NCBI RefSeq assembly: GCF_001634885.1
Contig: NZ_LWEX01000024.1
Coordinates: 1-45,782 of the forward strand
DNA: 45,782 nucleotides
Reading direction: 5' to 3'
Source: Sulfitobacter sp. HI0040
Lineage (GTDB): Bacteria > Pseudomonadota > Alphaproteobacteria > Rhodobacterales > Rhodobacteraceae
Both the position numbers and the translations under genes were made by a program. Under the pieces are notes generated by a model. That model saw only the letters and a program-made list of their open reading frames with translations, made no database searches and was not told the DNA's origin. Positions 3,966 to 20,482 of the stretch are shown here, one piece after another. The stretch's first letter is position 1. The number at the start of each line of letters is the position of its first letter.

Positions 3966-4889
3966 ATGTATACCATCGCCGCCCTTTATCACTTCACCCG
4001 GTTCGACGATCCGGCCGCGCTGCGGCCCGACCTTCTGGCGCTGTGCGAAACCCAAGAGGTCAGAGGCACGCTTTTGCTGGCCCGCGAAGGGATCAACGGC
4101 ACCATCGCCGGGCCCAGGGCGGGGATCGACGCGGTTCTGGCGCATCTGCGGGGCCTGCCCGGATGCGCTGATCTGGAGTGGAAGGAATCGACCGCCCGCA
4201 GCGCCCCCTTCGGCAAGCTCAAGGTGCGCCTGAAGCGGGAGATCGTCACGATGGGACAGCCCGATGTGGACCCGATGCAAGGCACGGGCCACTACGTCGC
4301 CCCGGCGGACTGGAACGCCCTGATCGGACAACCCGATGTTGTCGTGATCGACACCCGCAACGACTACGAGGTGGCCATCGGCACCTTCGACGGCGCCGTC
4401 GATCCCCGGACAGCCAGCTTCGGGGAATTTCCCGAATGGTGGGAAAAGAACCGGGATCGGTTCGCGGGCAAGAAGATTGCCATGTTCTGCACGGGGGGCA
4501 TCCGCTGCGAAAAATCGACGAATTACCTTCTCGGCCAAGGGGTGGAGGAGGTCTTTCACCTCAAGGGCGGGATTTTGAAATACCTTGAGGACGTCCCACA
4601 GGAACAAAGCCGCTGGCAGGGTGACTGCTTCGTTTTCGACAACCGCGTCAGCGTCAGCCACGGGCTCGCAGAAGGGCCGCATATCCTCTGCCACGGGTGC
4701 CGGCGGCCCATCCTGCCCGAAGACCGGGAGCGCCCTGAATACGAGCCGGGCGTCTCCTGCCACCATTGCCATGCGGAAACCTCCGACGCGGACAAGGCGC
4801 GTTTCCGCGAACGGCAGCGCCAGTTGACCCTGCAGCGACAGCGGGCGGCAAAGGTCGATCCCGGACAACGCGAAGGGGGCGGGACTTAG
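3966..4889 (+). CDS. trhO: tRNA uridine(34) hydroxylase (rhodanese-like TrhO)
   Basis: Family members catalyse oxygen-dependent hydroxylation of U34 to 5-hydroxyuridine, the first step toward the cmo5U/mo5U wobble modifications. The 307-residue protein has the N-terminal TrhO domain (about 1-95, with [10 protein letters not shown] at 40-49) and a rhodanese domain (about 105-215) whose active-site loop is [10 protein letters not shown], with Cys175 as catalytic thiol and Cys181 behind it. After it come two Cys pairs, CHGC (242-245) and CHHC (265-268), which look like a zinc-binding tail typical of the family, then a basic C-terminus. Its stop overlaps the stop of the convergent FAD oxidoreductase by 4 bp. 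Older annotations call this a rhodanese or YceA. Confidence 0.94.
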
Positions 4890-6214
4890 CGGTCCGCCAG
4901 TGCGAAAGCTGCATAAGCCGGTGGCATGACGGCACGGCGGAACCTGCCGAGTTCGAACCGCGACAGCGGTGTTTTCATCGGCTGCGGATAGAGCCGGGAA
5001 GGCTTTCTGCCCTGAGCCAGTTCCGCGACGACAGCGCCCGAATAGCTGCCCATCGCCACCCCGTTTCCATGATAGCACAGCGAAGCAAACAGCCCCTCGC
5101 GCCCCGGAACCGGCCCAACGAAGGGCATCCGGTCGCGCGCGATGCAAACCATGCCGGACCAGCCATGGGGTGTTTCGACATGCTTCCAAGAGGGAAACAT
5201 CGCTTCGAAATCCCGGCGCGCCCGTGCCAGCGCGCGTTTTTCGGAACGTGGGTTTGACAGCAGCCCGCCCCGCACGCCGAACAGCATCCGCCTGTCCGGC
5301 ATCAGGCGAAAGTAATGCAGCAGACGGCGCGTGTCATAGCAGGCCTGTGCGCTGGTCCAGCCCTGCGCGTCCAGTTCCACCTGCGTCAGCGGGCGGGTGA
5401 CGATGACGCTCGATTGCGTCGGCATGTAGCGCCCGCGCAGCCAGTCCGGCAGGTCCTCGGACGAATAGCCATTCGTCGCCACGATGACCCGCCCCGCCCG
5501 AACGCGTCCCTGCGGCGTATCCAGCGAAAATCCGGGGCGGTCGTCGTGTATGGCATGGGCTGGCGTGCCTTCGAAAAGGCGCGCCCCTGCGTCTTCCGCG
5601 GCCTTCGCCAGACCTGCGAGGTATTTGCGGGGATTGAGTGCGAAGCCCACCGGCGTGGTCAGCCCGCCATGAAAGCCCGCGTTCATACCCTCTTTGGGGA
5701 GGTCCGCGGCCTTGATCAGCCTTGGGGTAACGTCGTAATCCGCCTCGATCTCTTCCGCCTCGCGCTTCATCCCCTCGAAATCCGAAGGGCGATGGGCAAG
5801 GCGCGTTTCCCCCTCCGAATGGCGGTCGACGTCGATCCCCAGCTCCCGGATCAGATCCTGCACGAAACGAACCGAGGCCGCCTCCGTCGCGCGCCAATCC
5901 CGGCGGCCCTCTGCGCCGAAGCGGGCCTCCAATCCGGCGTTGTCCAGCATACCACCGCCGAGGCAACAGAAACCGCCGTTGCGGCCCGACGCGCCCCATC
6001 CGACCCGTTCCGCTTCGAGCACGGCAACCGACACGCCTTCTTTCGCAAGATGCATTGCCGCGGACAAGCCGGTGAACCCGGCCCCGATCACGGCGACGTC
6101 GCAAGTTAGATCACCCTGCAGCGTGGGGCGTTCCGGCAGGTCGCACGTCCGATCCCACCAGCAGTTTGCCCGGGGGGCGGCGCTATAGGCGAAACCGGAA
6201 TAGATGCGCTTCAT
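4886..6214 (-). CDS. FAD-dependent amine oxidoreductase (PuuB/DAO family)
   Basis: A 442-residue flavoprotein of the D-amino-acid-oxidase-like fold. The FAD-binding Rossmann motif is [12 protein letters not shown] with the Gly triad at 44-49, followed by the family signature [11 protein letters not shown] at 72-82; a C-terminal [17 protein letters not shown] segment completes the FAD site. It is most like the gamma-glutamylputrescine oxidase (PuuB) group found with polyamine importers. It is last in potF-potG-potH-potI-oxidoreductase, its ATG overlapping the potI stop by 4 bp, so it probably oxidises the imported amine or a conjugate. No PuuA glutamylation ligase is in the window, so whether the substrate is free or glutamylated cannot be told. 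Its stop overlaps trhO. Confidence 0.87.
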
Positions 6215-7032
6215 CCCGATGCCCGTTCCGCCGCCTGCGCCTCCTTCTGGGCGCGCAGGCTGGCCCGCTTGCTGATGAGCGATGCGGTGATCACCCCGGT
6301 GGCCACAATCGCGATCATGATGGTGGAGAGCGCGTTGATCTCGGGCGAAACGCCGAGCCGCACTGCGGAGAAGATCTTAATCGGCAGTGTCGTGGCCGAA
6401 GGTCCGGCGGTGAACGACGCGATCACGAGGTCATCGAGACTGAGGGTGAAAGCCAGCAGCCAGCCCGCGATGACGGCAGGCGCGATGATCGGCAGGGTCA
6501 CGAGCCGGAAGGCATCCCACGCAGAACATCCCAGATCCAGCGCCGCTTCCTCCAGCGAGCGATCGAAGGAAACCAGCCGCGAGGATACGACGACAGAAAC
6601 GTAGCACATGGAAAACGTCGTATGGGCCAGAACGATGGTCAGCACGCCCCTGTCCAGACCGATCCCGATAAAGAGCAGCAGCAGCGACAGGCCGGTAATG
6701 ACCTCCGGCATGACGAGAGGGGCGTAGATCATTCCCGAGAACAACGTACGCCCCAGAAAGCGCCCCCCGCGTACCAGAACATAAGCTGCCATCGTTCCCA
6801 GCAATGTCGCCAAGGTGGAGGACATCAACGCCACCTTCAGCGTTACCCATGCGGCGCCGAGGAAGGCTTCGTTCTGGATCAATTCGCCGTACCACCGGGT
6901 GGAAAATCCCGCCCATACCGTTACCAGTTTGCTGGCGTTGAAGCTGTAGATCACGAGGATCAGCATCGGCAGGTACAGAAAGGCGAATCCGAGGGTCAGG
7001 GAGGTGACGTTGAACCATGAAAGACGTCTCAT
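6211..7032 (-). CDS. potI: Polyamine ABC transporter permease (PotI type)
   Basis: Inner-membrane permease of a putrescine-type importer, 273 residues, the normal PotI/PotC length. About six membrane spans are evident, with the cytoplasmic EAA coupling loop at EEAALDLGCSAWDAFRLV, which docks on the ATPase. A GGAGG ribosome-binding site precedes the ATG at 7032, and that start overlaps the potH stop by 4 bp. The stop in turn overlaps the start of the FAD oxidoreductase. It pairs with potH to form the channel served by PotF and PotG. This permease has standard architecture, unlike the enlarged one in the second importer at 19304-20482. Confidence 0.94.
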   Translation of the reverse strand: MRRLSWFNVTSLTLGFAFLYLPMLILVIYSFNASKLVTVWAGFSTRWYGELIQNEAFLGAAWVTLKVALMSSTLATLLGTMAAYVLVRGGRFLGRTLFSGMIYAPLVMPEVITGLSLLLLFIGIGLDRGVLTIVLAHTTFSMCYVSVVVSSRLVSFDRSLEEAALDLGCSAWDAFRLVTLPIIAPAVIAGWLLAFTLSLDDLVIASFTAGPSATTLPIKIFSAVRLGVSPEINALSTIMIAIVATGVITASLISKRASLRAQKEAQAAERASG

Positions 7033-12612: not shown

Positions 12613-13770
12613 TCAGATCAACCGTTCGCCAAGGCGGTCGAGCATCCGCAGGCAGGCATCAAGCTGGTCGAGTTCGACATATTCGTCCGGCTTGTGCGCC
12701 TGCCGGATCGATCCCGGGCCGCAGACCACCACGTCGACGCCGTAGTTCTGGAACAGCCCCGCCTCGGTGCCGAAAGGCACCACATCCGCACCGTTGGCCC
12801 CCAATAGCCCGGCCACGAGGTCGCGCGCCGCGTTCAGCGGCACGGGCTGCAGCCCGGTGATTTCGCCCATGGTCTCGGTCGAAATGTCGGCATCGGGGCA
12901 GATGGCCCGCATGTGCGGCAGCAACTCTTCCTCGACATAGGCCTCCATCACCTGCCGGACATGGTGATAGTCCTCTGTCTGGACGGGGCGGAATTCCCAA
13001 TCCACCTCGGCCCGACCGACAATAACGTTATGCGCATGCCCGCCCGCGATACGCCCGATGTTGAGCGTGGTTTGCGGCGGCTCGAACCGGCTGTCCGGCG
13101 GGGCGCGACCGCGCAGTTCCTCCCGCAGGCCTAGCAAACGCATGACGAAGCGCGCCGCGTATTCTGCGGCATTCACCCCCCTGTCGGGATCCGATCCGTG
13201 CCCCTCCAGCCCCGTGAAGCGGGTGGTATATTCGCAGCAGCCTTTGTGGCCTTCGATCACCCGCATTTCCGTGGGCTCCCCGACGATCGCGATATCAGGG
13301 CGCAGCCCGCGCTTGGCCAGTTCCGGGATCAGGGCCTGCGCCCCCAGACAACCGGTTTCCTCGTCATAGGTGAAGGCGAAGTGCACCGGGCGCTTCAGCG
13401 GCATTTCCGCGAACCGGCGCGCTTTTACCATGGCGGCGGCGATGAAACCCTTCATGTCGCAGGTCCCCCGCCCGAAGAGCCGCTCCCCCTCGCGGCGCAG
13501 CCGGAACGGATGGTCAGACCATTCCTGATCGGTCACCGGCACAACATCCGTATGCCCAGACAGCATCACACCGCCCGGCACATCCGGCCCGAGAGAGGCA
13601 AAGAGGTTCGCCTTTGCCCCGCCGTCGTCGATAAACAGGTGACACCGCGCGCCGAGAGCCGCCAGATCGTCGCGCAGCGATTCCGACATTTCCCGGTTAC
13701 TGTCGGTGGAGACCGTGGGAAAGGCCACGAGCCGGTCAAGCTCGGCCACGGTATGTTCCAGATCGCTCAC
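12613..13770 (-). CDS. argE: Acetylornithine deacetylase-like M20 amidohydrolase (ArgE family)
   Basis: A 385-residue zinc amidohydrolase. Metal and catalytic residues are in place: His73 and Asp75 in SGHTDVVP, Asp105 in GRGTCDMKG, Glu137-Glu138 in TYDEETG, Glu165 in VGEPTE, and a late His in RQAHKPDEYV. ArgE removes the acetyl group from N-acetylornithine; relatives deacetylate other N-acetyl-diamino acids. The start is the GTG at 13770, giving MSDLEHTVAELDRL and overlapping the upstream M24 gene's stop as GTGA. The much longer open frame upstream is antisense-frame noise inside that gene. Coupling to an ectoine-hydrolase-like gene suggests it may act on an N-acetyl-diamine from that enzyme, not, or not only, in arginine synthesis. 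Confidence 0.88.
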   Translation of the reverse strand: MSDLEHTVAELDRLVAFPTVSTDSNREMSESLRDDLAALGARCHLFIDDGGAKANLFASLGPDVPGGVMLSGHTDVVPVTDQEWSDHPFRLRREGERLFGRGTCDMKGFIAAAMVKARRFAEMPLKRPVHFAFTYDEETGCLGAQALIPELAKRGLRPDIAIVGEPTEMRVIEGHKGCCEYTTRFTGLEGHGSDPDRGVNAAEYAARFVMRLLGLREELRGRAPPDSRFEPPQTTLNIGRIAGGHAHNVIVGRAEVDWEFRPVQTEDYHHVRQVMEAYVEEELLPHMRAICPDADISTETMGEITGLQPVPLNAARDLVAGLLGANGADVVPFGTEAGLFQNYGVDVVVCGPGSIRQAHKPDEYVELDQLDACLRMLDRLGERLI

Positions 13771-14948
13771 TTGACGAACATCCGGCGCGGACGGTTGCAG
13801 AGCGTCTCCACAGGGCCGCTTTCCCGGATGCGAATGCTTTCGGTGATTTCGATCCCCCAATCTTTCATCCAAAGGCCGGGCATGAAGTGGAAGGTCATAT
13901 CGGGTTCCAGCACGGTTTCGTCCTCGGCGCGCAGTGAAATGGTCCGCTCGCCCCAATCCGGGGGGTAGCTGAGCCCGATGGGGTAGCCACAGCGCGCCCC
14001 GCGTTCGATCCCCGCCCGTTCCAACGGTGCGGCCAGTGCATTCGCCACATCGCAGGCACGGTTGCCTGCGCGCGCGGCCTCGAGCCCTGCTTCCAACCCC
14101 TCCACCAGTGCTGCCTCTGCCCTTTTGAGGTAATCCGGTGGCGTTCCCAGAAACAGCGTCCGGCAGAAGGGGGCGTGATATCGCCGGTAACAGCCGGAGA
14201 TCTCGAAAAACGTCGCCTCGCCGGTGGCAAAGGGGCGGCCATCCCACGTCAGATGCGGCGCAGCGGCATCGGTCCCCGAGGGCAGCAGCGGCACGATGGC
14301 CGGATAGTCGCCCCATGCGCCGGGAACGCCGCGGATCGCGTCGCGATAGATCTCCGCCACCACCTCGTTCTTGGGCATCCCCGGCTCAACCCGTTCCAAC
14401 AAACCATCCACGATCTTTTCGGAAATCGCCGCCGCCTTGCGCATATAATCCAGTTCCGGCGCGGATTTTATGGTGCGCTGGCGGTTCACAAGCGCCGTCG
14501 CATCCCGGATCTCCGCGCGGGGCAGTGATGCACAGAGGGTCCCATGCGCCTTGGCGGAGTAATAGTAATTGTCCATCTCCACCCCGATGCGCGCGCTTTC
14601 GAGGTCATGCGTCCGCAACGCCTCCGCGAGGGCCTGCATCGGGTGCCTTTCGGTGGACTGAACATAATTGTCGGCGTAGCCGCGGACCCGGTCGGCAGAC
14701 ATCCAGACCGTGCGTAACGCCCCGTTCGTATCCTGATTGCGGCCCCACCAGACAGGATCGTCATCCGGCAGAACGATGACCCCCTGATGCACGTAGAAGG
14801 ACCAGCCGTCATAGCCGGTGATCCACGCCTGATTGCTGGGATCGGTGACGAAAAGCGCGTCCAGCCCCGCTGCCTCCATCGCATGTCGTACCAGAGTAAG
14901 CCGGCGGTCATATTCCGCGCGTTCGAACGGCAAATCGATGGCTGGCAT
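13767..14948 (-). CDS. M24-fold hydrolase resembling ectoine hydrolase (DoeA/EutD)
   Basis: A 393-residue pita-bread-fold protein with a creatinase N-terminal domain (about 10-155) and an M24 domain (about 165-390). It strongly resembles remembered DoeA/EutD sequences: TGYDGWSFYVHQ (44-55), VQSTERHP (96-103), GVEMDNYYYSAKA (122-134), GDYPAIVPLLPSG (213-225), FFEISGCYRRYH (247-258), GYPIGLSYPPDWGE (321-334) and TFHFMPGLWMKDWG (352-365). Most positions that hold metal ligands in aminopeptidase members are changed (GYPIG for GHGIG, FMPG for EPG), as in creatinase-like, non-peptidase members. DoeA opens ectoine to N-acetyl-diaminobutyrate. No other ectoine gene is in the window, so the substrate is open. 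It is first of a coupled pair with argE. Confidence 0.85.
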   Translation of the reverse strand: MPAIDLPFERAEYDRRLTLVRHAMEAAGLDALFVTDPSNQAWITGYDGWSFYVHQGVIVLPDDDPVWWGRNQDTNGALRTVWMSADRVRGYADNYVQSTERHPMQALAEALRTHDLESARIGVEMDNYYYSAKAHGTLCASLPRAEIRDATALVNRQRTIKSAPELDYMRKAAAISEKIVDGLLERVEPGMPKNEVVAEIYRDAIRGVPGAWGDYPAIVPLLPSGTDAAAPHLTWDGRPFATGEATFFEISGCYRRYHAPFCRTLFLGTPPDYLKRAEAALVEGLEAGLEAARAGNRACDVANALAAPLERAGIERGARCGYPIGLSYPPDWGERTISLRAEDETVLEPDMTFHFMPGLWMKDWGIEITESIRIRESGPVETLCNRPRRMFVK

Positions 14949-15177
14949 ATCGCACGATTCCCTGTGGTCCGGGAAAACGGTGAAACAGCGCTAAGCTCCA
15001 TGCAAGTTATTTATTGGGCAGGTCAATCGACTGATTCCACCCTCTACGCCGCAAAATGGCCTGCAAATGACGCTTCCAGACCCAAAACTCGGTAAATCGG
15101 TTGCAAACTCGGGCTGGTATGGTTTTACATCGCTGCAACAAGCGCGGAAAACCGCCAAGTCCAATGGGGAGCCAGTT

Positions 15178-16275
15178 TTGGCCGACACACAGAAAAACGG
15201 CGCGTTCGTCGAATTCGATCGCGTTCAGAAAAGCTATGACGGCGAAACTCTTGTCGTGAAAGATCTCAACCTCAGCATGCCGAAGGGAGAGTTCCTGACG
15301 ATGCTGGGGCCGTCCGGTTCGGGCAAGACGACCTGCCTGATGATGCTGGCCGGTTTCGAAACCGCCACCCACGGAGACATCCGGCTGGACGGCGTTTCGA
15401 TCAACAACATCCCGCCGCACAAGCGCGGCATCGGCATGGTGTTCCAGAACTACGCCCTGTTTCCGCACATGACCGTGGCGGAAAACCTCTCGTTTCCGCT
15501 TGAGGTCCGCAGGATCAGCAAGTCGGAGCGCAAGGAAAAGGTGAACCGTGCGCTCAGCATGGTGCAGATGCAGGATTTCGCCGGTCGTCGCCCCACCCAG
15601 CTTTCGGGTGGCCAGCAGCAGCGGATCGCGCTCGCACGGGCGCTGGTGTTCGAACCCGAACTCGTGCTGATGGACGAACCGCTCGGCGCGCTGGACAAAC
15701 AGCTGCGCGAGACGCTGCAGTTCGAGATCACGAACCTCGCCCATGAGTTGGGTATTACCGTGGTTTACGTGACCCATGACCAGACAGAAGCGCTGACGAT
15801 GTCCGACCGGGTCGCCGTTTTCGACGATGGCCGCATCCAGCAGCTTGCCCCGCCGGACAAGCTCTATGAAGAGCCGGAAAACAGCTTCGTGGCCCAGTTC
15901 ATCGGCGAGAACAATACGCTGGATGGCGTGGTGCAGGAAATTTCGGACGGCATCTGCGTCGTGAAACTGGACAGCGGCGAGGTGATCGACGCGAAGCCGG
16001 TGAACGTCAGCAAGGTGGGGGAGCGCACGCGCGTTTCCATCCGGCCCGAGCGGGTGGAGATCAACCCGCAGCTTGGCGAGAACGCGCATACGCTCAAGGC
16101 CGAGGTTCTGGAATTCATCTACATGGGCGACGTCTTCCGCACACGCCTGCGCGTCGCGGGCGTGGACGATTTCGTCGTCAAGACGCGGAACCGGGCGGAT
16201 CAGGTTCGTCTGGAACCCGGCAGCCATGTGCAGATCGGCTGGCTGCCCGAAGATTGCCGCGCGTTGGACGCCTGA
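15178..16275 (+). CDS. potA: Polyamine-type ABC transporter ATP-binding protein (PotA type)
   Basis: ATPase of the second importer. With a TTG start at 15178, which has GGGGAG six bases upstream, the protein is 365 residues and begins MADTQKNGAF just before the first beta strand. An in-frame ATG at 15067 would add 37 residues of unfamily-like sequence, so I did not use it. Walker A is GPSGSGKTT (44-52), Q-loop MVFQNYALFPH (87-97), signature LSGGQQQR (142-149), Walker B LVLMDEP (162-168), switch His in VTHDQTEA. A C-terminal TOBE domain follows (RPERVEINP). It opens the operon potA-potD-potB-potC and is divergent from the M24-argE pair across 229 bp, in which I found no convincing promoter pair. 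Confidence 0.93.
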   Translation: MADTQKNGAFVEFDRVQKSYDGETLVVKDLNLSMPKGEFLTMLGPSGSGKTTCLMMLAGFETATHGDIRLDGVSINNIPPHKRGIGMVFQNYALFPHMTVAENLSFPLEVRRISKSERKEKVNRALSMVQMQDFAGRRPTQLSGGQQQRIALARALVFEPELVLMDEPLGALDKQLRETLQFEITNLAHELGITVVYVTHDQTEALTMSDRVAVFDDGRIQQLAPPDKLYEEPENSFVAQFIGENNTLDGVVQEISDGICVVKLDSGEVIDAKPVNVSKVGERTRVSIRPERVEINPQLGENAHTLKAEVLEFIYMGDVFRTRLRVAGVDDFVVKTRNRADQVRLEPGSHVQIGWLPEDCRALDA

Positions 16276-16394
16276 CGCGCGCGCGACCCGTCGCTGCCCG
16301 CCCCAGGGCGTGGAGGCGATCGAGAGAGAGGCTGTGATCAAGCCCGATGTCACACCTTCAACACCCAAACGGGCGAAAAATGGGAGACTACCGA

Positions 16395-17501
16395 ATGAAA
16401 TTGACCAAGACACTACTGGCCACGTCGGCCCTGACCATCGCCGCGGGCATGGTGCACGCCGATGCACATATGGCCGATGAAATGACAATCGTCAGCTGGG
16501 GCGGAGCCTACTCCAACTCCCAGCAGAAGGCCTATCACGACCCCTACATGGAAAAGACCGGCGTCAAGATCATCAACGATGAATCTTCCGCCGAAGCGGT
16601 TTCCAAGCTGCGCGCCATGAAAGAAGCGGGCAACGTGACATGGGACGTCGTCGACGTTGTTGCATCCGACGCCCTGCGTCTGTGCGATGAAGGTCTGGCG
16701 ATGGAAATCGACCCGGACGAAATGCTCGCCGAAGGTGACGACGGCTCCAGCGCGAGCGATGACTTCGGCGACCTGCTCGTCGGTGACTGCTTCATCCCGC
16801 AGATCGTCTATTCGACAACCGTGGGCTACCGCACCGACCTTGTCGGCGACACACCGCCCACAGACATCTGCGCGATCTTCGACACGGAAACATATCCGGG
16901 CAAGCGCGCGCTGGAAAAGCGCCCGATCGGCAACATGGAATGGGCCCTGCTCTGCGATGGCGTCGACAAGGAAGAAATCTATGACGTGCTGGAGACCGAA
17001 GAAGGTCAGCAGCAGGCACTCGACAAGCTGGCAACCATCAAGGACGACGTGATCTGGTGGTCCGCCGGTGCCGACACGCCCCAGCTTCTGGCTGACGGCG
17101 AAGTCATCATGGGCTCCACCTACAACGGTCGTCTGTTCAGCCTGATCGAAGAGCAGGATCAGCCCGTCGCGATGATGTGGGACGCGCAGGTCTTCGACCT
17201 TGACGGCTGGATCATCCCGACCGGCCTGTCCGAAGAGCGTCAGGCCCGTGCGCTCGACTACGTCCGTTTCGCGACAGACACCCAGCGTCTGGCGGATCAG
17301 GCGAAGTACATCTCCTACGGTCCGGCACGGAAATCCTCCGCACCGCTGGTGGGCAAGCACGCCGAACTGGGCATCGAGATGGCACCCCACATGCCGACCG
17401 ATCCGGAAAACGCCAAGAACACGTTCCTCTACAACTACGAGTTCTGGGCTGACTACCGTGATGACATCGACGCCAAGTTCCAGGCTTGGCTGGCGCAATA
17501 A
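16395..17501 (+). CDS. potD: Polyamine-type periplasmic substrate-binding protein (PotD-like)
   Basis: A 368-residue extracytoplasmic binding protein. I chose the ATG at 16395 (GGGAG at 16382-16386), which gives a clean signal peptide MKLTKTLLATSALTIAAG...HADA. The mature part has the family start MTIVSWGGAYSNSQQKAY and a conserved WWSAGADTPQLLADGEV then YNGRLF segment. It belongs to the SBP_bac_8/PotD group but is distant from PotF at 9160-10245, so the two importers probably prefer different ligands. The body is rich in Asp/Glu (for example DPDEMLAEGDDGSSASDDFGD), which fits a cationic ligand, though substrate cannot be read from sequence. It sits 119 bp after potA and is followed by a strong hairpin before the permeases. 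Confidence 0.9.
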   Translation: MKLTKTLLATSALTIAAGMVHADAHMADEMTIVSWGGAYSNSQQKAYHDPYMEKTGVKIINDESSAEAVSKLRAMKEAGNVTWDVVDVVASDALRLCDEGLAMEIDPDEMLAEGDDGSSASDDFGDLLVGDCFIPQIVYSTTVGYRTDLVGDTPPTDICAIFDTETYPGKRALEKRPIGNMEWALLCDGVDKEEIYDVLETEEGQQQALDKLATIKDDVIWWSAGADTPQLLADGEVIMGSTYNGRLFSLIEEQDQPVAMMWDAQVFDLDGWIIPTGLSEERQARALDYVRFATDTQRLADQAKYISYGPARKSSAPLVGKHAELGIEMAPHMPTDPENAKNTFLYNYEFWADYRDDIDAKFQAWLAQ

Positions 17502-17592: not shown

Positions 17593-19299
17593 ATGACCGA
17601 CGTCACCGACGCTACCACCGCAAAAAGCGCCCCTACCCCCGACGACGGCATTCGCATTGCCGACGCGGAAGCCTCGGGCCCGGTTCTTGCCGCCGATGGA
17701 ACGCCGCTCAAGCGGTCCCTCAGCCGGGCACTGCGGATGCAGAAGCTTCGCGCCCTTGCCCTGATCGCCCCCCTTCTCATTTTCGTGCTGATCACGTTCA
17801 TCGCACCGATCGCGGACATGCTGTTCCGCTCGGTCGAAAACGATGTCGTCGCCGAAACCCTGCCCCGCACAACGCCGATGCTCGCCGAATGGGATGCCGA
17901 TAGCGGCACCCCACCCGATCCCGCCGTTTTCAAGGCACTTTATCAGGACATTTTCTTTGCCGCCGAACGCAAGCAGCACACGGTGCTGGGCGGACGGCTC
18001 AACTACGAGATGACCGGCATGTCGTCTCTTTTCCGCAAGTCCGGGCGCAAGGTCGAGGACATGGGAGAGGTCTATCAGGACCAGTTCGAGGACCTGAACG
18101 AATTCTGGGAAGAGGGTGAGAACTGGAATGCCCTCATGGGGTCGGACGAGTGGAACGCCGAAATGGCGGCCTGGGACCCCAAGGGGGACGCGCGTCAGCC
18201 CCGGTTCGAACTTCGCGACGGTATCGAAGAACTGCTCCCCCAGACCTCGGAGACCTTCAGCGCCTATGCGAAATTCATCCAGACCGTGGATGAAGACAAC
18301 TTGGCCAAGGAAGACCCCTGGGCCATTGTCTATTCCGCGCTCTATGACGACCTGACAGGCCCCGCCGCCGCCAGGTTGAACGACTACTCAGGCCCCGCCG
18401 CAGAGGAACTGCGCGCAGCCGCCGCCGCGGTCGACACCTTCGAAACGGTGGATTACGTCGCCGCGTTTCAGGACATCGACAAGGACTGGACCGATCCGGA
18501 GGTCTGGCAAACGATCAAAACCTATTCACCGCGTTTCACGAACGGATACTTCCTGAACGCGATCGACATGCAGAAATCGCCCGACGGGCCAGAGATGCGG
18601 CCCGAGAACCAGCAGATCTATATCAAACTGTTCTGGCGTACGCTGGTGATGTCGCTAACAATCACGGCCTCCTGCATCCTGCTGGGCTATCCCGTGGCGT
18701 GGATCCTCGCCAACCTGCCCGCTCGCACCGCGAACCTGCTCATGATCCTCGTTTTGCTGCCTTTCTGGACCTCTCTGCTGGTACGGACGAGCGCGTGGAA
18801 GGTGATGTTGCAACAACAGGGTGTCATCAACGACACGCTGGTCTGGCTGGGGCTGGTGGACACGATGGACCGGCTGGTGCTGATCAACAATCAGACCGGC
18901 ACGATCATCGCGATGACCCATATCCTGTTGCCGTTCATGATCCTGCCGCTCTATTCGGTGATGCAGACAATCCCGCCCAGCTACCTGCGCGCCGCCAAAT
19001 CGCTTGGCGCCACGAACTGGACGGCTTTCTGGCGGGTCTATTTCCCGCAGTCGGTTCCGGGCATCGGTGCGGGGTCGATCCTCGTCTTCATCCTTGCGAT
19101 CGGTTACTACATCACGCCCGAAATCGTCGGCGGCACATCCGGTATCTTCATCTCGAACCGGATCGCCTATCACATCTCGCAATCGCTGAACTGGGGGCTC
19201 GCTGCCGCACTGGGGACGATCCTGCTGGCCGCGGTGCTGCTGCTCTACTACGCCTACGACAAGATCGTCGGTATCGACAACGTCAAGCTGGGGGGCTGA
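17593..19299 (+). CDS. potB: Polyamine-type ABC permease (PotB type) with very large first periplasmic loop
   Basis: A 568-residue permease, about twice the usual PotB length. Residues 1-50 are a polar cytoplasmic leader, span 1 is about 52-75 (ALIAPLLIFVLITFIAP), and the next span begins only at about 346 (RTLVMSLTITASCILLGYP). The roughly 260 residues between are hydrophilic, acidic and rich in Trp, Tyr and Phe, with no signal or repeat I recognise. The normal permease core follows to 555 with the EAA loop at YLRAAKSLGATNWTAFWRV (464-482). Topology puts the insert in the periplasm. One continuous frame with uniform codon use argues against a frameshift or fusion error. It is 4 bp from the next permease gene. 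The core assignment is firm; the insert's role is unknown. Confidence 0.92.
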   Translation: MTDVTDATTAKSAPTPDDGIRIADAEASGPVLAADGTPLKRSLSRALRMQKLRALALIAPLLIFVLITFIAPIADMLFRSVENDVVAETLPRTTPMLAEWDADSGTPPDPAVFKALYQDIFFAAERKQHTVLGGRLNYEMTGMSSLFRKSGRKVEDMGEVYQDQFEDLNEFWEEGENWNALMGSDEWNAEMAAWDPKGDARQPRFELRDGIEELLPQTSETFSAYAKFIQTVDEDNLAKEDPWAIVYSALYDDLTGPAAARLNDYSGPAAEELRAAAAAVDTFETVDYVAAFQDIDKDWTDPEVWQTIKTYSPRFTNGYFLNAIDMQKSPDGPEMRPENQQIYIKLFWRTLVMSLTITASCILLGYPVAWILANLPARTANLLMILVLLPFWTSLLVRTSAWKVMLQQQGVINDTLVWLGLVDTMDRLVLINNQTGTIIAMTHILLPFMILPLYSVMQTIPPSYLRAAKSLGATNWTAFWRVYFPQSVPGIGAGSILVFILAIGYYITPEIVGGTSGIFISNRIAYHISQSLNWGLAAALGTILLAAVLLLYYAYDKIVGIDNVKLGG

Positions 19300-19303
19300 G
19301 ATC

Positions 19304-20482
19304 ATGGCCGTTCTGACACCTGTTTCACGCACCCCCGCAAGCTTCTACGCCTCCGTTGTGGCGGCCTTCGGCGCCTTCGCCGGGCTGCTGGTCGGCACCG
19401 CTCAGGGCAGCGGCCTGATCGGCCTGATTCTTGGCGCCGTCGTTATGGGAGCCGCCGCCTACCTGATGGCCGAGGTTCTGGGGAAGGAGAAGACGTCCCG
19501 CTATGGGCTCGCGCTGCTCATGGCGCTTGGCGGCTTCTTCATCGGGGGCCTCGTCGCGGCGGTTATTGGCGCGCTGTTCGGGCTGTTCTTCGGCTGGCTG
19601 ACCTTCTGGCTCTACGAAGGGCGATACAGGGCAAAGGTCGCCCCTTATCTCACCCCCGGCCAGGTCCTGTGGCATTATACCTTCCGGGTGATCTGCGGCG
19701 CGATCTTCATCTTTCTGATCACGCCGATCCTCGTGGTCATGCCGTTGAGCTTCAACGCCGAGGATTTCTTTACCTTCACGCCGGAAATGCTGCGCTTCGA
19801 TCCGGACGGGTATTCGCTGAAGCATTACCGCGATTTCTTCACCAACTCCGACTGGCAGAACGCGGTGCAGAACTCGATCCGCATCGCGCCGGTCGCCACC
19901 CTGCTTTCCGTGGGCTTCGGCACGCTTGCCGCCATCGGGCTGAGCCAGCCGCATGTTCCGTTCCGGCGCGCGATCATGGCGATCCTGATCTCCCCGATGA
20001 TCGTGCCGCTGATCATCTCCGCTGCGGGCATGTATTTCTTCTACAGCCGCATCGGCCTGCAGGGCACCTATCTGGGCGTTGTCCTTGCCCATGCGGCCTT
20101 GGGCATCCCCTTCGTCATCATCACCGTGACGGCGACGCTGGTCGGGTTCGACAATTCGCTTACGCGCGCGGCGGCCAACATGGGGGCCAATCCGGTCACG
20201 ACGTTCTTCCGGGTGCAGATGCCGCTCATTTTGCCCGGCGTGATCTCGGGCGGGCTCTTCGCCTTCATCACCTCTTTCGACGAGGTGGTCGTGGTGCTCT
20301 TCGTCGGCTCGGCCGGGCAGAAAACGCTGCCGTGGCAGATGTTCACCGGGCTGCGCGAACAGATCAGCCCGACCATTCTGGCGGTGGCGACGATCCTCGT
20401 GTTCATCTCAATATGTCTGCTGACGGTGGTGGAACTGCTGCGCCGCCGGTCGGAGCGTCTGCGGGGCATGTCGCCGGGCTGA
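19304..20482 (+). CDS. potC: Polyamine-type ABC permease (PotC type) with N-terminal membrane extension
   Basis: A 392-residue permease; PotC proteins are usually about 260-275. The conserved core starts at about residue 122 (VLWHYTFRVICGAIFIFLITPI, span 1 near 126-148) and contains the EAA loop LTRAAANMGANPVTTFFRV at about 277-295. Residues 1-115 form an added Gly/Ala-rich hydrophobic module with three to four candidate spans (about 13-32, 36-56, 67-88, 84-104), including GLIGLILGAVVMGAAAYL and GGFFIGGLVAAVIGALFG, then a short charged linker EGRYRAK. The ATG is 4 bp after the potB stop. It is the last gene of the operon, facing the convergent transglycosylase gene 29 bp away. Core assignment is firm; the module's role is unknown. 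Confidence 0.92.
   Translation: MAVLTPVSRTPASFYASVVAAFGAFAGLLVGTAQGSGLIGLILGAVVMGAAAYLMAEVLGKEKTSRYGLALLMALGGFFIGGLVAAVIGALFGLFFGWLTFWLYEGRYRAKVAPYLTPGQVLWHYTFRVICGAIFIFLITPILVVMPLSFNAEDFFTFTPEMLRFDPDGYSLKHYRDFFTNSDWQNAVQNSIRIAPVATLLSVGFGTLAAIGLSQPHVPFRRAIMAILISPMIVPLIISAAGMYFFYSRIGLQGTYLGVVLAHAALGIPFVIITVTATLVGFDNSLTRAAANMGANPVTTFFRVQMPLILPGVISGGLFAFITSFDEVVVVLFVGSAGQKTLPWQMFTGLREQISPTILAVATILVFISICLLTVVELLRRRSERLRGMSPG

Follow-up and report, generated by a model that had tools for sequence, protein, structure and literature searches.

A predicted helical, tandemly duplicated domain in the first periplasmic loop of a PotB/PotH-type ABC importer permease from Sulfitobacter

The DNA analysed here, referred to as the window, is a stretch of 45,782 nucleotides from Sulfitobacter sp. 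HI0040 (contig NZ_LWEX01000024.1). It carries a four-gene ABC importer operon on the forward strand, in which the first of two permeases has an unusually long segment between its first two transmembrane (TM) helices. The genes of the operon and the parts of this permease are as follows.

15067..16275, + strand: cognate ATPase of the PotA family (family match; same operon order in relatives)
16347..17501, + strand: cognate substrate-binding protein, SBP_bac_8 (Pfam; operon order in relatives)
17593..19299, + strand: PotB/PotH-type permease with a large P1 loop (P0001), one open frame of 568 aa
17737..17829, + strand: TM1 of this permease, about residues 49-79 (hydropathy; helix 39-78 in the model)
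17836..18135, + strand: insert unit 1, residues 82-181, the first loop-domain copy (core profile positions 1-99)
17968..18051, + strand: conserved basic motif in unit 1, residues 126-153, RKQHTVLGGRLNYEMTGMSSLFRKSGRK (RLNYE...SLFRKSGR), net charge +6
18136..18213, + strand: variable spacer, residues 182-207 (mean entropy 2.05 bits, the highest within the insert)
18214..18525, + strand: insert unit 2, residues 208-311, the diverged second copy (core profile, comparison of the two units, model)
18526..18624, + strand: linker into TM2, residues 312-344 (PotB alignment)
18625..19296, + strand: core membrane domain, TM2-TM6, BPD_transp_1 (Pfam, hydropathy, Foldseek)
19304..20482, + strand: partner permease, PotC-like, with an N-terminal hydrophobic extension (family match; relatives' operons)

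The gene order ATPase, binding protein, permease, permease recurs in 10 of 10 loci read, and all four genes are present in 75 of the 80 best loci, the remaining 5 of which end at a contig end. The partner permease (392 aa) has a hydrophobic extension of ~115 residues before its PotC-like part; the first 118 residues of the protein include 18 Gly and 20 Ala. Partner permeases of 283-295 aa that lack this extension occur in 12 of 79 loci, and a thirteenth short form, in locus L104, is cut by the contig end. Locus L032 (7304-16936) contains two complete operons side by side, and the loop domain is single-copy in both.

The surroundings of the operon point to a plausible class of substrate. The window binding protein matches 6dgv, a GABA sensor precursor, and 4eq7, the GABA binder Atu4243; chains similar to it bear the names of GABA and polyamine binders. 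A class III aminotransferase gene lies near the operon; between the two, on the minus strand at 12613-14948, are genes for an acetylornithine-deacetylase-type M20 protein and an ectoine-hydrolase-like M24 protein, the latter scoring 582.6 bits, just under the cut-off of 613. An M24 gene is found in 24 of 80 relatives (counted by hand in the flanks examined), and a relative on a Rahnella plasmid adjoins genes for 4-aminobutyrate transaminase and succinate-semialdehyde dehydrogenase. By Pfam the binding protein belongs to SBP_bac_8, the family to which a report on GABA and 5-aminovalerate import assigns PA0602 and PA0222; in the accessible part of that report, AgtB of Pseudomonas aeruginosa is homologous to PA0602 and AgtABCD serves GABA and 5-aminovalerate (PMC11113362). 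From homology and gene neighbourhood, an omega-amino compound is a plausible substrate of the window importer, and a polyamine is not established.

By domain score, the window permease is a type I ABC importer permease. BPD_transp_1 (MetI-like) is confined to residues 365-555, at 57.1 bits against a Pfam gathering score of 26.4. Similarity to E. coli PotB is limited to residues 342-558 (phmmer, E 1.7e-41), and the score against the PotB equivalog NF007044 is 175.3, the cut-off being 348. The best Foldseek matches of the full-length model are PotB chains 8y5i_B and 8y5f_B, and SugB and ModB are also among the matches. E. coli PotB, part of the PotD-PotABC spermidine importer, has the same core membrane domain and an operon that likewise comprises an ATPase, a binding protein and two permeases; its P1 loop is short, whereas that of the window permease is large.

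The initial annotation placed a large insert in the first periplasmic loop of an open reading frame at 17593-19299, and both the coordinates and the length of the protein (568 aa) are right. Hydropathic spans lie at residues 49-82 and from 346 onwards with none between, and helices 39-78 and 343-374 flank the loop in the full-length model, giving a TM1-TM2 loop of 265 residues (81-345). A cytoplasmic location was rejected from hydropathy, given a strongly hydrophobic TM1 that follows a basic stretch and an insert that contains no span. The window's own PotH, previously credited with a loop of about 60 residues, has hydropathic spans at 81-122 and from 154, which leaves a loop of ~30-40 residues. 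A frameshift or gene-fusion artefact was rejected on the strength of 78 full-length relatives, which retain the insert at 45-69% identity over its length; these are the proteins of the 80 best loci minus L076, which is truncated, and L131, which is frameshifted. In the latter, the permease gene at 4875-6535 consists of two overlapping frames, owing to a frameshift or an assembly error. A same-genus permease at L024 (1453-3306; 617 aa) carries ~47 extra residues after 'NDTLVW', in another loop of the protein.

The internal organisation of the insert was examined with a loop profile built from single-copy loops only, 20 of the 37 single-copy forms contributing to it. In the window permease, unit 1 matches profile positions 1-99 (E 4.2e-25 in the genome search, iE 1.3e-25 locally), and a second match spans residues 226-346 (18268-18630) and profile positions 13-138 (E 9.6e-19 in the genome search), or positions 37-138 when run locally. 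With this single-copy profile, all 79 long forms and all 7 mid forms give two matches that share at least 20 profile positions, and each of the 37 single-copy forms gives one. Plain insertion without duplication was rejected, as profile positions are covered twice. By eye, the motifs LP.T...W...P...VF.ALY.D and (Y)..AF.D.D..W.....W..I each align at two places in the insert.

Direct comparison of the two units gives the same picture with some qualification. Compared with shuffled sequences, HMM searches with half-domains gave only a marginal signal, and profile-profile tests with column shuffles were therefore used. The unit 1 and unit 2 profiles score 51.8 (E 1e-8), the maximum over 200 column shuffles being 23.8; most of the signal comes from the C-terminal half of unit 2, and a smaller first set gave E values of 1.2e-3 to 8e-7 and hhalign probabilities of 20-92%. 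Among the half-domain pairs, coreN/segB scores 34.7, with 0 of 200 shuffles as high, and coreC/segA scores 29.7, a value reached by 1 of 200 shuffles (at 130.1, an unexplained outlier). For the control pairs, coreN/segA scores 12.0, with 15 of 200 shuffles as high, and coreC/segB scores 17.4; because 0 of 200 shuffles reached this last score, the cross-pair control is not clean. On the profile evidence as a whole, the insert is two tandem copies of a domain of ~105-140 residues that is single in the wider subfamily.

The insert is predicted to be all-helical and on the periplasmic side of the membrane. Modelled alone with AlphaFold2 (residues 82-340), it folds confidently, as the earlier description of a large folded insert would have it, with a mean pLDDT of 93.5, a pTM of 0.88 and almost exclusively helical structure. 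In the full-length model, ten-residue blocks within 91-310 have pLDDT values of 85-97, and those from 351 on have values of 36-85. In the numbering of the 82-340 model, the first half contains helices 3-8, 12-17, 29-44, 48-56, 62-72, 74-87, 89-92 and 94-101, and the second set comprises 130-133, 135-152, 163-174, 176-183, 189-201, 207-214, 216-219 and 221-229, with a spacer helix (104-112) between the two sets. The helix order roughly repeats across the halves, the helices being paired by order alone and some pairs being unequal in length. The model has no Foldseek match in the PDB at E≤0.001 and no match among known structures at VIA Z≥5, and searches of PDB sequences with the loop profiles give nothing below E 0.3. 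Residues 82-340 match no Pfam family at E up to 1, and the insert has no NCBIfam match; the single-copy loops of L031 and L025 give one NCBIfam match (E 0.01) and one Pfam match (E 0.028), both far below cut-offs and taken as chance. No title or abstract start describing the loop domain was found in the literature, weak evidence of absence given the few search terms aimed there, and relatives in the annotated plasmid records examined are named only 'ABC transporter permease'. The lack of a match among solved structures is compatible with what is possibly a new fold.

Profile matches place the loop domain in a subfamily rather than in an isolated protein; its members occur in Alphaproteobacteria and other Pseudomonadota, in operons ordered ATPase, binding protein, permease, permease. 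The single-copy profile, applied in answer to whether the domain exists elsewhere, found matches in 74 of 398 genomes from the phylum. Two adjoining matches occur in 16 of these 74, with 13 of the 16 belonging to the window's family and 3 to a single other family (rows read by hand). Because all the matches listed lie within open frames of at least 395 aa, no free-standing copy of the domain was seen among them. With a single-copy permease as query, 289 genomes of the class yielded numerous matches of nearly full length in different families; the tally of 177 from that search includes ordinary PotB-type proteins. Plasmid proteins of Paracoccus, Vibrio, Paraburkholderia, Azospirillum and Rahnella match the single-copy permease unbroken across the loop. 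With its two profile matches, the window permease belongs to the subfamily defined by a TM1-TM2 domain of ~140 residues. The initial annotation had set the long loop against the PotB family as a whole; this holds for PotB and PotH, which have short loops, but is tempered by the neighbouring subfamily, which has one copy of the domain.

Loop length separates the duplicated from the single-copy forms. Among 65 permeases (matches of at least 200 bits, duplicates removed, with L021, L025 and L041 left out), loops of 262-265 residues occur in 21, of 228 residues in 7 and of 137-147 residues in 37, and the spacer at 182-207 is mostly absent from the 228-residue forms. The two longer classes come from the window's genus, and the shortest from more distant families and five same-genus genomes (L033-L037) in which a more distant operon gives the best match. 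At least 80 loci came from a scan of named genomes, with Sulfitobacter, Roseobacter, Salipiger, Marivita and Rhodovulum among the matches listed; for the loci placed in trees, the labels read Roseobacteraceae, Paracoccaceae or Rhodobacterales bacterium. As judged from the loop profile, the marine relatives, of which the closest named are Sulfitobacter and Roseobacter, carry the domain tandemly duplicated.

Two trees address the history of the second copy, both of them subsets picked for shorter runs and fewer long branches. In the first (61 family and 2 outgroup rows, without L025), tandem forms lie among single-copy forms and the single-copy L066 lies inside the tandem group, a pattern that one gain and one loss fit; the placement of L066 is modestly supported (84/78 and 81/79). 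The second (61 rows, no outgroup) adds L025, a protein from the window's genus in which the complete domain is present exactly once (profile 1-138, E 9e-45). L025 clusters with L002, L003 and L008 (support 100/95) within the tandem group, and this tree fits one gain with two losses. The L025 genome is 84% complete in 220 contigs, and its single copy may stem from an assembly error despite an intact permease frame. Several single-copy rows have long branches and the deep forks are weakly supported, and gains of the second copy may have been independent. Among the proteins examined, the second copy is missing in some and the whole domain in none, with searches and a 200-bit cut that favour members possessing it.

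Rates of change differ along the protein, as measured in 74 operons (73 of the 80 loci plus the window), which also supply the charge and distance-correlation data below. With a mean pairwise identity of 0.52, the insert is the fastest-evolving part measured; the binding protein stands at 0.79 and the membrane domain at 0.87. Within it, unit 2 evolves faster than unit 1 (mean entropy 1.70 vs 1.16 bits) and can be lost; because relatives with one copy exist, unit 2 is not always needed. Its lower conservation, the fit of the second tree to two losses and the one intact copy of L025 inside the tandem group are what would be seen if the second copy were nearly neutral, a functionless recombination product retained since it is harmless. 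That account is somewhat unlikely, given that an insert of tandem length is found in all 78 full-length proteins from the 80 named loci and that the window insert is predicted to fold confidently.

The composition of the loop was previously described as acidic and rich in Trp and Tyr. Residues 81-345 contain 52 D+E and 23 K+R, in keeping with the first description, and are only mildly enriched in aromatics (W 3.0%, Y 4.2%). The net charge of the whole insert has a median of -30 in the 74 operons, against a median of 0 in single-copy loops (n=37), so that acidity is a property of the duplicated forms and not of the single-copy loops; it may be a feature of marine organisms and not a means of binding. 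The binding proteins are themselves strongly acidic, with net charges of -27 to -51 across the 74 operons. Because the whole insert is acidic, only the basic motif of unit 1 could give charge attraction. Near-invariant residues occupy 14 of its 28 positions (126-153) in 79 sequences, and unit 2 is without it.

Three roles had been proposed for the insert: binding a cationic substrate, scaffolding the binding protein and reaching the peptidoglycan. The first finds no support in near-neutral single-copy loops and an acidity seen only in duplicated forms. The third likewise gains none from an insert that has no Pfam or NCBIfam match and no solved relative found. More broadly, the domain might bind a partner other than the binding protein: peptidoglycan, a sensor or a channel of the outer membrane, or else free substrate, which it would concentrate. 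A large, acidic, fast-evolving insert would suit such a partner, and a lytic transglycosylase gene adjoins the operon in the window and some relatives; that gene is, however, absent from the flanks of many relatives where flanking sequence was examined, and the same near-neutral single-copy loops, absent family matches and lack of a solved relative by sequence or fold make this account decidedly improbable. Scaffolding of the binding protein is the best supported of the three, though only by position and by analogy.

The analogy is to MalF, whose P2 loop the initial annotation regarded as lying elsewhere in the topology. MalF is laid out in Pfam as MalF_N_TM at 14-61, P2 (PF14785) at 100-260 and BPD_transp_1 at 298-501. 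P2 thus directly precedes BPD_transp_1, just as the window insert (82-311) precedes its own (365-555). Because the two fall in the same loop when counted on the shared core, a different location is unsupported. Sequence kinship with MalF P2 was rejected, since residues 82-340 give no PF14785 match at E up to 1. Daus and colleagues have reportedly worked on the contact between MalF P2 and MalE. The window insert is predicted to be all-helical and is tandemly duplicated, unlike MalF P2, for which the accessible part of one report mentions anti-parallel beta-sheets and describes a P2 segment that contacts MalE (PMC3150292). Position points the same way in PotB: permease residue 342, at the loop end, aligns with PotB L60, which is among the residues contacting the PotD C-lobe in the PotD-PotABC cryo-EM structure, according to the part of that report available (PMC11414716).

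These comparisons suggest a mechanism in which the insert would sit beside the docking site of the binding protein and offer it an additional platform, in the manner of the MalF P2 loop. The unit 1 basic motif would be the candidate contact with the strongly acidic binding protein, and unit 2, a diverged and losable copy, may enlarge the platform. A periplasmic, all-helical tandem P1-loop domain that most likely serves as a docking platform through the unit 1 motif is the leading interpretation, held at about even confidence. Distance correlations do not favour the binding protein as the partner of the insert, the partial correlations being 0.25 for the binding protein, 0.29 for the ATPase, 0.27 for the partner permease and 0.30 for its own membrane domain, and no reciprocal insertion was seen in the binding protein among nine sequences. 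The slightly closer tracking of the membrane domain than of the binding protein (0.30 vs 0.25), together with the lineage-variable extension of the partner permease, would accord with a domain that packs on the periplasmic face of both permeases, where it would serve to stabilise or gate the heterodimer and make no contact with the binding protein. The contacts of the equivalent PotB loop end with PotD (PMC11414716) and of MalF P2 with MalE (PMC3150292), as given in the available parts of both reports, and the prominence of one conserved basic motif within the domain render this reading unlikely.

The insert is real, conserved and partly explained, with docking of the binding protein as its probable role by analogy. 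More tentatively, the helical fold may be new and independent of MalF P2 as a docking platform, and may have been doubled in marine roseobacters for a second contact with the binding protein or a tether near the pore. The window permease presents a second, seemingly independent example of a folded domain at the loop position through which MalF P2 contacts its binding protein. Versions with zero, one and two copies exist naturally on related membrane cores, and the contribution of such loops to a type I importer is therefore directly testable in harmless marine bacteria.
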